DNA of 32,737 nt. Origin: an uncultured Thiotrichales bacterium (GTDB lineage: Bacteria > Pseudomonadota > Gammaproteobacteria > CAIRSR01). The position numbers were made by a program, and so were the translations under genes. Where the stretch lies: NCBI GenBank assembly GCA_903824965.1, contig CAIJYR010000012.1, positions 1 to 32,737 on the forward strand. The letters are read 5' to 3'. The notes below the pieces were generated by a model. That model did not search any database. It was not told the origin of the DNA and saw only the letters and a program-made list of their open reading frames with translations. This document shows, one piece after another, positions 26,959 through 29,029 of the stretch. How positions within the stretch are numbered: the first letter of the stretch is position 1; each line of letters opens with the position of its first letter.

Positions 26959-27402
26959 TCACAACGCTTTTCGCAACAGTGCTTTGTGAACATCCCCTAG
27001 GCTGAGCACACCCTTGAGATGACCGTCCTCTGCCACTGGGATGCGACGTAGCTTGTGGTATACCATGACCGAAGTTGCCTTCAGGACTGGCATTTCTGGA
27101 TGGACAATGGAGATATTTCGGTTCATCAGGTCGCCCACTTTGAGCTTGCTGAGGTTCTGATAGTCATCTTCCATCCCTTCAAAGTCTGTTTTTCCGAGCC
27201 CCTGGCTGATCACGATGTCCAGGGTTGGGAAGAGATATCGCAGGATATCACTCTCCGAGATAATGCCCAGCAGACGATCGGTGTTCTCGACCACGGGCAG
27301 GCTTGGAATGCGATGCAGACACATACTTGCTGCCACCTCGTTGAGGCGATCGTCAGGCGATACGGTCTTCACCCATCGGGTCATTACTTCTTCGACTTTC
27401 AT
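26959..27402 (-). CDS. CBS-domain pair protein
   Basis: This 147-aa protein consists of two CBS motifs. The first is VEEVMTRWVKTVSPDDRLNEVAASM to LLGIISESDIL; the second is VGDLMNRNISIVHPEMPVLKATSVM to LKGVLSLGDVH. Between them lies an acidic insert (about residues 62-85, GLGKTDFEGMEDDYQN), longer than in minimal CBS proteins. Such pairs bind adenosyl nucleotides such as AMP, ATP or SAM and act as energy sensors. GGAGG 6 bases before the ATG is an excellent RBS and lies just after a strong hairpin (CCGCCCTGAAGGGCGG on this strand). The leader may therefore control translation. It probably heads the operon running to the PP2C and membrane protein genes. Confidence 0.88.
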   Translation of the reverse strand: MKVEEVMTRWVKTVSPDDRLNEVAASMCLHRIPSLPVVENTDRLLGIISESDILRYLFPTLDIVISQGLGKTDFEGMEDDYQNLSKLKVGDLMNRNISIVHPEMPVLKATSVMVYHKLRRIPVAEDGHLKGVLSLGDVHKALLRKAL

Positions 27403-27562
27403 CAGTGCCTCCGTGAAACCCCGCCCTTCAGGGCGGTGAGCAAGGGATAGAGCCTTCCGTTCGGGCTTTGGCTGTTCAACCCAGACCTTCTTTCATTCTA
27501 ATCTAGTGCGATGGCCGTTTTGGTGCTAAGCCCTGAACGGCGACTACTGTACCAGGGTTTCA
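27403..27562 (-). ncRNA. Structured spacer resembling an IS200/IS605 right end / omega-RNA, no TnpB
   Basis: Read on the minus strand, the 160-base spacer between rluC and the CBS gene contains three features. GCCGTT and AACGGC pair around a 16-base loop. AGCC and GGCT pair around AAAGCCCGAACGGAA. It ends in the hairpin CCGCCCTGAAGGGCGG followed by GGTTTCAC. Endings of the type GCCCTGAAGGGCGGGGTTTC are typical of IS200/IS605 (TnpB) right ends, where they form the 3' part of omega-RNA. No tnpA or tnpB is present, so this would be a remnant or non-autonomous element. It could instead be simply the structured leader of the CBS gene. Confidence 0.35.
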
Positions 27563-28573
27563 CTATGGGTTCACCCCCCTCTCGCCGATGCCGCCACTGG
27601 GATGCAGGGCTGTGAGCACGCGCTGGAGGTCTTTGTCCAACGGGGCTTCTAGCGACAATACCTGGCCATCCTCTTCAAACTGCAGTCTGTGTGCGTGGAG
27701 GAACAGTCGATGGAGACCCCAACCCCGCGCCAAACGGTTGAAAACAGGATCCCCATATTTTTCGTCTCCTGCGACCGGATGGCCGGTATGGGCCGCATGG
27801 ACACGGATCTGATGAGTGCGACCTGTCAGGGGTTTGGCTTCTACTAGACTGGCGGCGGGAGGGGTAGCCACCGTCTGTATAGGCGTTTGTTTAGACAGGC
27901 TAGTAAAACGTGTGACGGAGGCTTTGCCGGTTGCGTCCACGCATACCATGCGTTCCCCCGATTGGAGGTGATTGGTCAACAGGGGTGCATCCACTTGGTG
28001 TGTGCCGGATCGCCAGGTGCCGCGTACCAGAGCCAGGTAGCGTTTATCAACCCCACCATCTCGCAGGAGCGCGTGGAGGTGGCGCAAGACGCTTCGGCGT
28101 TTTGCGACCATCAGCAGACCTGAGGTATCGCGATCCAAGCGATGTACCAGTTCCATGCAGGGTGCATTGGGACGTAGGACACGCAAGACCTCGATGGCCC
28201 CAAACCGAAGTCCACTGCCACCGTGCACAGCCAAACCAGAGGGTTTGTTCAGCACAAGCAGGTGATTGTCTTCGTGGAGAATACAACCTTGCATGATGTC
28301 AAGAAGATGGGTGCTTGGGCGGGTGGGTGCGCTGGGTACGCTTTGGCGTACTGGGGGGAGTCGTACCCGATCACCTGCACAGATGCGATACTCTGGCCCT
28401 ACGCGACCCTGGTTGACGCGCACTTCGCCGCGACGCAGCAAACGATACACATGACTGCGTGGTACACCCTTCAAGTGTGCGACGAGGAAGTTATCTATGC
28501 GCTGTCCTGCTTGGTCGGGGGTAACCTCCAAGTGGCGTACAGGTAAGCGTGTCGATCCATTGGTTTCGTTCAT
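27563..28573 (-). CDS. rluC: 23S rRNA pseudouridine synthase, RluC type
   Basis: Counted from MNETNG at 28573 the protein has 336 aa. An N-terminal S4 RNA-binding domain (about 20-75, GQRIDNFLVAHLKGVPRSHVYRLLRRGEVRVN) is followed by the RluA-family catalytic domain. This includes LLVLNKPSGLAVHGG, the catalytic aspartate in HRLDRDTSGLL (D147) and KPLTGRTHQIRVHAAHTGHPVAGDEKYG. RluC converts three uridines of 23S rRNA to pseudouridine; RluD is the alternative, but divergence from rne, as in E. coli, favours RluC. The frame is open to 28633, but the extra residues (CFGTVGCFLGC) are not family-like. The chosen start has a weak RBS. Confidence 0.92.
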   Translation of the reverse strand: MNETNGSTRLPVRHLEVTPDQAGQRIDNFLVAHLKGVPRSHVYRLLRRGEVRVNQGRVGPEYRICAGDRVRLPPVRQSVPSAPTRPSTHLLDIMQGCILHEDNHLLVLNKPSGLAVHGGSGLRFGAIEVLRVLRPNAPCMELVHRLDRDTSGLLMVAKRRSVLRHLHALLRDGGVDKRYLALVRGTWRSGTHQVDAPLLTNHLQSGERMVCVDATGKASVTRFTSLSKQTPIQTVATPPAASLVEAKPLTGRTHQIRVHAAHTGHPVAGDEKYGDPVFNRLARGWGLHRLFLHAHRLQFEEDGQVLSLEAPLDKDLQRVLTALHPSGGIGERGVNP

Positions 28574-29029
28574 GGCTGCATGGTACAGGCAGACACACCC
28601 CAAAAAACAGCCCACAGTACCAAAACATACCAAGCGTTTGTGATCTGTCTCCGAAGTAGAATGGCAAAAATCCTTATCGTCTGCGTACTATTGGCCACGG
28701 ATGCTCTAGATTGTTATAGTTCAGTATCCGTTGGGCCTCGTCGCCGAGGCTGCGGATCCCCTAGATGACAGGGTCAAGAAAAGGTAAAGCGTTTTTCTTT
28801 TGTATTTTAACATAGAAAGTGCGGTTAATGGGTTGTTGTCAACACGATGGACACCTCCCGACCCCACCGTTCGCCCGACTCGATCTGCGCTTCTCGCGGG
28901 CTGCAAGTGGGAAACAAACGCTGGCCAGCCCCCCGTTCGGTGCGCCGCGTCCTACTCTTCCCCTGCCTGCCAATAGGGCCAGGCTCTTGAAGTGCTGTAG
29001 TAGGTTGGCTTCCATGAGAAACAGAGACA
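28574..29029 (+). promoter_or_regulatory. Long rne leader region with candidate promoter
   Basis: This 456-base spacer separates divergent rluC and rne. A sigma-70-like candidate for rne is TTGGCC (28691) and TATAGT (28715) with an 18-base spacing. That would give a leader of about 300 bases, comparable to the long rne 5' UTR of E. coli that mediates RNase E autoregulation. Inside it are a GCCTCG/CGAGGC hairpin (28734-28749), a U-rich stretch (28790-28810) and GC-rich self-complementary DNA up to 28980. No coding frame here looks real. Autoregulation is inferred from family knowledge. Confidence 0.4.

Follow-up and report, generated by a model that had tools for sequence, protein, structure and literature searches.

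The nuclease IscB is considered ancestral to Cas9. Its systems have their guide on the 5′ side of the omega-RNA and their TAM on the 3′ side of the target. For HEARO, the omega-RNA of IscB-type nucleases, an ATGA or GTGA flank has been described. To our knowledge, little is known of the effects of IscB elements on their hosts. According to a passage of PMC9755519, RF02033 is present in 65% of HEARO-nuclease 5′ regions, and PMC9581776 places the TAM of IsrB, a relative of IscB, downstream of the target and gives it as NTGA-type.

The locus analysed here lies in a 32,737-nt stretch (the window) of the genome of an uncultured Thiotrichales bacterium (G000; 3.22 Mb, 265 contigs), which was compared with a genome of the same genus (G001), two of another genus in the same family (G002 and G003) and one of another family (G071). 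From the sequence comparisons, we regard it as quite probable that the spacer upstream of a CBS-domain gene in this window carries the relic of a non-autonomous IscB (HEARO, IS200/IS605 superfamily) element, left by a past burst, and that the TAM-side end of this family doubles as the ribosome-binding site of many host genes.

The spacer between the RluC-type and CBS genes

Read on the minus strand, the spacer runs through the CCGCCCTGAAGGGCGG hairpin, GG, TTTCAC, GGAGG and CACTG to the ATGA that starts the CBS gene (Table 1). The hairpin-GG-TTTCAC ending pointed out in a first-pass annotation, made from the sequence alone, is indeed present, directly before the ribosome-binding site and ATG (27402) of that gene. 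When the left part of the element (27495-27456) is aligned locally with a full copy's omega-RNA, it scores 40, against a maximum of 32 among 200 dinucleotide shuffles, and since no shuffle reaches its score the window copy is best read as a relic of about 93 nt with an internal deletion. We infer that the CBS gene is translated from a ribosome-binding site derived from this element.

Table 1. Features in and around the spacer (window coordinates).
Feature	Position	Strand	Basis
Decayed IscB/HEARO-family element, about 93 nt: omega-RNA 5′ fragment fused to TAM-side terminal hairpin	27403..27495	-	Similarity to other copies
Omega-RNA fragment TGAAAGAAGGTCTGGGTTGAACAGCCAAAGCCCGAACGGA, alignable with the 5′ portion of full copies	27456..27495	-	Local alignment score 40
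Terminal hairpin of transposon end, 6 bp, CCGCCC-TGAA-GGGCGG	27421..27436	-	Sequence
Element tip TTTCACGGAGGCACTG (family consensus TTTCTCGGAGACATTG)	27403..27418	-	3 mismatches to 20-mer
Shine-Dalgarno-like GGAGG within element tip, 5 nt before ATG	27408..27412	-	Sequence
ATGA: target/TAM tetranucleotide adjoining the element, first four bases of the CBS gene	27399..27402	-	Sequence, junctions
CBS-domain gene, two CBS domains, 147 aa	26959..27402	-	Pfam PF00571, E 2.6e-24
Leader upstream of the element, probably native	27496..27562	-	Likeness to the G001 leader limited to 16 nt (AACCCTGGTACAGTAG)
Upstream gene for an RluC-type pseudouridine synthase (S4 + PseudoU_synth_2)	27563..28633	-	Domain matches

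Little of the element body survives at this site. Only about 40 nt of omega-RNA are recognisable, the strand able to pair with the Shine-Dalgarno sequence in other copies is missing (by eye), and Rfam gave no HEARO match in 27300-27800 even at E ≤ 10 (only unrelated weak matches) and nothing at the gathering score in the window; given the short fragment and the lack of a HEARO match at E = 10, a domesticated guide RNA, one of the roles first suggested for this copy, finds no support here. Nor did the spacer prove ‘highly structured’: the predicted fold of its 160 nt (-51.9 kcal/mol) is no better than those of dinucleotide shuffles (z = -0.62; 47 of 200 equally good), and the same holds for the element with the gene start (27383-27500; z = +0.78, 158 of 200 equally good). 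Whole-genome searches of G000 for the tnpB zinc ribbon, Y1 tnpA and the IscB RRXRR domain gave no match on the window’s contig, in line with the reported absence of a transposase or TnpB. The alternative of an insertion scar, also raised at first pass, is borne out by an IS200/IS605-superfamily end that stands without its protein and with a fragment of omega-RNA, and this end does lead the CBS gene.

Copies of the end and their family

The search for the same spacer elsewhere in the genome, proposed as a check in the first-pass annotation, was productive: the last ~50 nt of the window element match at least 37 other places in G000 (40 of 52 candidates scored), and the likeness of the window end to other ends is far beyond chance (108 matches of a 20-nt tip pattern against 0 for its reverse). 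The typical end among 38 places reads CCGTCTCC-TTTCAT-CCCCGCCC-TGAA-GGGCAGGG-TTTCTC-GGAGAC-ATTG, followed by ATGA, and the family tip, CGGAGACATTG before ATGA, places a Shine-Dalgarno sequence 6 nt before the ATG. Counted by eye, the tip carries GGAG in 36 of the 38 places found by similarity, and the tetranucleotide after the end is ATGA in 37 and ATGG in one. Copies without iscB that keep both ends mostly measure ~345-395 nt, from GTCAACC to the end, and shorter deletion derivatives are common.

With up to three mismatches, the 20-mer TTTCTCGGAGACATTGATGA occurs 108 times in G000, twice in G001, 208 times in G002 and 76 times in G003, and its reversed control in none of these genomes. In the 100 of the 108 G000 places that were listed and fetched, the end is followed by ATGA in 94, ATGG in 3, ATGC in 1 and ATCA in 2, the pattern itself containing ATGA. 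We caution that, because the pattern contains both GGAG and ATGA, tips may include native sites, above all those with three mismatches (14 of the 100), and that some hairpin-less tips at gene starts may be native, since G001 has two matches. About ten gene-start tips show neither hairpin nor omega-RNA by eye; the hairpin test was crude, and several of the 23 tips classed by it as having neither show an imperfect hairpin by eye. In G001, which has no HEARO matches, one tip-like TTTCTCGGAGACACTG stands before GTGATGAAAC (L121) and is possibly an old relic.

The body, the ends and the target motif all assign the repeats to the IscB/HEARO kind; in the window copy decay has gone too far for an Rfam match. 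HEARO (RF02033) scored in 7 of the 19 loci tested with Rfam (L002-L020), on the same strand as the end and at E-values from 1e-19 to 7e-4, one of the seven exceeding the gathering score; the covariance-model search proposed at first pass, empty in the window, thus recovered HEARO at loci with the same end. At E ≤ 0.001, HEARO matched 37 times in G000 (up to 113.5 bits), 114 times in G002, 69 times in G003 and not in G001 or G004, and under stricter filters it was present in 13 of 274 genomes of the class, G000, G002 and G003 included. The IscB RRXRR domain matched four times at two places in G000, five times in G002, four times in G003 and not in G001. On contig C51 of G000, part of an omega-RNA (by eye) is followed by an iscB frame, by the same end, with GGAGGCACTG, and by the ATGA of a 194-aa ORF; this iscB does not look whole, because its frame spans 331 aa from the start codon compared with 413 aa in a G003 copy, and the second G000 iscB copy is split over frames. 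Y1 TnpA gave no match in G000 or G001, four in G002 and six in G003. Since no Y1 transposase was found in G000 and neither of its iscB copies looks whole, the family has probably stopped moving there. Contig C351 of G002 carries omega-RNA, iscB and Y1 tnpA in succession (L224, L271), a candidate autonomous IscB element; its tnpA is followed by a hairpin and TTTTCTCGCCAC and then, by eye, by neither ATGA nor GTGA.

Of the first-pass reading as an omega-RNA-like IS200/IS605 end, the superfamily, the omega-RNA fragment and the missing protein stand, whereas the family is that of IscB/HEARO and not of TnpB. The ribosome-binding site and CBS start do adjoin the end, as had been noted, but the bases that follow are the TAM side (ATGA) and not a guide, because the IscB guide lies 5′ of the omega-RNA.

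Three tnpB matches in G000 (L021-L023) have ends unlike the window end; two of them (L022 and L023, the latter cut short) have another end, TTGACGAACGGTAACGTCCGTTAAC, in common. The exact 22-mer end matched five times in Pararobbsia alpina, Paraburkholderia domus and P. fungorum (L115-L119), all five opening ORFs of 259-558 codons, and in no viral contig. The Paraburkholderia domus tip L119 has next to it, on the complementary strand, what by eye resembles a piece of tnpB, which suggests that such ends are common to IscB and TnpB elements. Among plasmids, the omega-RNA query matched three from Pseudomonas at 71% identity over 56% of its length. In G071, an orphan omega-RNA ends in GCGGAGATTCTG and ATGA before a 403-aa ORF, and the frame behind the end of its iscB element runs for only 33 codons.

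Ends at the starts of host genes

The ATG after the end opens at least 60 codons in 85 of the 100 listed G000 places (13 have a shorter frame and 2 no ATG); split by number of mismatches, the counts are 25 of 33 (none), 29 of 32 (one), 18 of 21 (two) and 13 of 14 (three). In a sample of ATGA sites outside core coding sequence in G000, 163 of 492 (33%) open 60 codons (binomial 1e-26), and the corresponding background is 18.5% in G002, 19.5% in G003 and 36% in G001 (42 sites). Pfam matches were obtained for 37 of 40 downstream proteins tested, a subset of the 85 chosen with a leaning to recognisable ones. The genes behind G000 ends include those for ribosomal protein S8, ribosome recycling factor, NusA, sigma-54 and a Trp/Tyr-type tRNA synthetase, as well as acyl carrier protein, biotin carboxylase, GARS, a NuoK-type subunit, KaiB and an Rrf2 regulator.

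Within the G000 gene-start tips, GGAG departs from consensus in 4 of 340 cells, compared with 96 of 1,020 at the other tip positions (p = 1e-8). This contrast weakens yet holds in stricter comparisons: without the most variable column (other positions 66 of 935, p = 9e-6), among tips with at most two mismatches (4 of 288 versus 57 of 864, p = 2e-4) and among tips with a clear end body (2 of 180 versus 29 of 540, p = 0.011). The 13 tips away from gene starts show no difference (GGAG 2 of 52, neighbours 7 of 156), at small numbers.

Tip classes in the other genus were taken from 50 loci of G002, picked by HEARO match and not by tip, and 39 of G003 (counted tips 208 and 76), leaving out two odd ATGA tips of G002 (one at an ORF start, one not) and one doubtful GTGA sequence of G003 that is not at an ORF start. 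GGAG tips stand at ORF starts in 20 of 25 cases and GGGG tips in 15 of 35 (G002 and G003 together; Fisher 0.007), a comparison in which tip class is confounded with age, as the GGGG copies of G003 are near-identical and so probably young. A second omega-RNA subtype of G002, with GCGGG-like tips (L072-L099, L209-L248), ends in CGCGGGCATTTG against GTGA and lies at an ORF start in 1 of 15 cases, against its own background of 15% (binomial 0.72); since GTGA starts are rarer, we read this as no excess, rather than as avoidance. At the lone ORF-start copy (L099), another element follows.

Orthologues of the CBS gene (two relatives) and of rpsH and acpP (three relatives) are without the element, so only G000 has it there. 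Before the ATGA of the CBS gene, native sites are seen in G003 (TTTCTGGAGGGTAAACG; an RluC-like gene upstream by eye) and in G001 (TTAGGAGGAAGTC; a different upstream gene). The case that would have counted against a transposon end, a spacer conserved only before CBS orthologues, is the opposite of what was seen: the spacer is absent in G001 and G003 and present before many unrelated genes. Native GGAG sites of rpsH stand directly before ATGAGC in G001 (CGGGAGTAATTGCCAG), G003 (CAGGAGTACTACCGG) and G002 (TAGGAGTAATTAGCAG); in G000, a 359-nt element with omega-RNA lies between the preceding gene (rpsN by eye) and rpsH, and a native site is not recognisable. For acpP, GCTGGAGGATTT is found in G001, G002 and G003 and is gone in G000, where the leader resembles those of the relatives up to ACCAACG and then gives way to the element. 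The left flanks of full-length gene-start copies give a mixed answer, with a clear native Shine-Dalgarno sequence in a minority only. One full copy, before an HU-like gene (by eye; L305 on contig C225 of G000), has a left flank ending in AAGGGGATAAAT, which looks like a separated native ribosome-binding site. Orthologues resembling ATP synthase subunit c were left out as an empty-site case because they have several paralogues; these occur in both G000 and G001 (L306, L311 and others), partly clustered.

We propose that IS200/IS605-type TnpA inserted the element next to ATGA and that, as the position of the ends and the sites of the relatives suggest, insertion between a native Shine-Dalgarno sequence and an ATGA start would cut off the old site and bring a new ribosome-binding site, because the end carries GGAG 6 nt before ATGA. 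Such insertions may have been tolerated or favoured, with the native site then decaying, and the tip would have become the working ribosome-binding site of the gene, which is consistent with the retention of GGAG and with tips that lack the rest of the element. At the window locus, the body would have shrunk to its present length, with GGAGG-CACTG-ATGA still starting the CBS gene.

An alternative interpretation is that the copies at gene starts are survivors of random insertion at ATGA, insertions within genes having been purged, ATGA being common at starts and the Shine-Dalgarno sequence of the tip being irrelevant. We consider this unlikely: it accommodates the abutment of ends on ATGA or GTGA, the background of ORF-opening ATGA sites (18.5% in G002 to 36% in the 42 sites of G001) and the confounding of tip class with age, but not readily the 85 of 100 ORF starts in G000, the excess of GGAG over GGGG tips at ORF starts in G002 and G003 (20 of 25 versus 15 of 35), the unrecognisable native sites of G000 acpP and rpsH, or the conservation of GGAG beyond its neighbours.

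The base stem of the end, of which GGAG forms the 3′ side, covaries across lineages (GTCTCC/GGAGAC, GTCCCC/GGGGAC, GCCCGC/GCGGGC) and is paired at 85%, compared with 78% when partners are shuffled (maximum 80%), in the 152 of 177 ends counted (25 were skipped); the Shine-Dalgarno likeness may therefore have begun as a by-product of this stem. Folding of 78 leaders, all of them from element copies, predicts GGAG to be frequently paired (median unpaired probability 0.27), which leaves room for regulation, and in many copies two mutually exclusive pairings can be drawn by eye within AGACGG...CCGTCTCC...GGAGAC. The repeats could on these grounds be a regulon of structured leaders, riboswitches or Shine-Dalgarno-sequestering switches, that merely resemble a transposon end. 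This seems to us highly improbable, because they are absent from the CBS (two relatives), rpsH and acpP (three relatives) orthologues, which is why the riboswitch reading is set aside, the downstream genes have no pathway in common, an iscB copy has the same end, Rfam names the body HEARO and the partner strand is lost in the window copy (by eye). A TnpB-type omega-RNA with its guide in the CBS ribosome-binding site (TldR-like, or a domesticated guide) is the least credible reading, since the general resemblance of IS200/IS605 hairpin ends, the presence of tnpB genes in G000 and the tnpB-like piece that, by eye, neighbours the Paraburkholderia domus tip on the complementary strand are outweighed by the different ends of the G000 tnpB copies, by the HEARO/IscB identity of the adjoining RNA and by an ATGA (37 of 38 similarity-found places) or ATGG (1 of 38) after the end, in place of a variable guide.

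Beyond the preferred reading of a relic whose family tip serves as a ribosome-binding site, we lean, with some reserve, towards a broader picture: an RNA-guided transposon family whose TAM-side end turned into a portable ribosome-binding site, for which ATGA starts would be safe landing sites, the host site decaying and the tip becoming locked into perhaps 3% of one genome’s genes (at least 85 of an assumed ~3,000), core translation genes included.

Comparison with known systems

As far as our literature searches show, it would be new for a TAM-side end to be coupled to the start of translation in host genes, as proposed here: among the titles and abstract openings searched, none described it, and Weinberg 2009, Kapitonov 2016 and Altae-Tran 2021 may report parts. 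Should host genes indeed be translated from the tip, a transposon of the Cas9-ancestor kind would have rewired how translation of core genes begins across a genome, and ATGA as a target motif would become understandable as a way of aiming at start codons. The reading also offers a testable route by which orphan omega-RNAs could persist without nuclease or transposase.

Leaders that sequester the Shine-Dalgarno sequence in a riboswitch-like manner share with many copies the possible alternative pairings around GGAG, but the repeats described here are of mobile origin, serve no common pathway and, in the window copy, lack the partner strand. TnpB omega-RNA elements (IS605/IS607) have a similar hairpin end and belong to the same superfamily; they differ in having guide and TAM on the opposite sides, and the three G000 tnpB matches end differently. 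Non-autonomous palindromic elements of TnpA systems (REP, PATE and MITE) likewise consist of dispersed hairpin ends without a transposase, whereas the copies here stand against start codons and have a built-in ribosome-binding site. REP elements are named in PMC8266576. The closest likeness in body is to HEARO RNA (RF02033), that is, IscB omega-RNA, and to ISC elements, with which the family shares the omega-RNA body, an iscB copy with the same end and the ATGA/GTGA junction; it differs from them in that most of the copies examined are without iscB, that the TAM-side end has a Shine-Dalgarno sequence and that 85 of the 100 listed copies in G000 stand at ORF starts.
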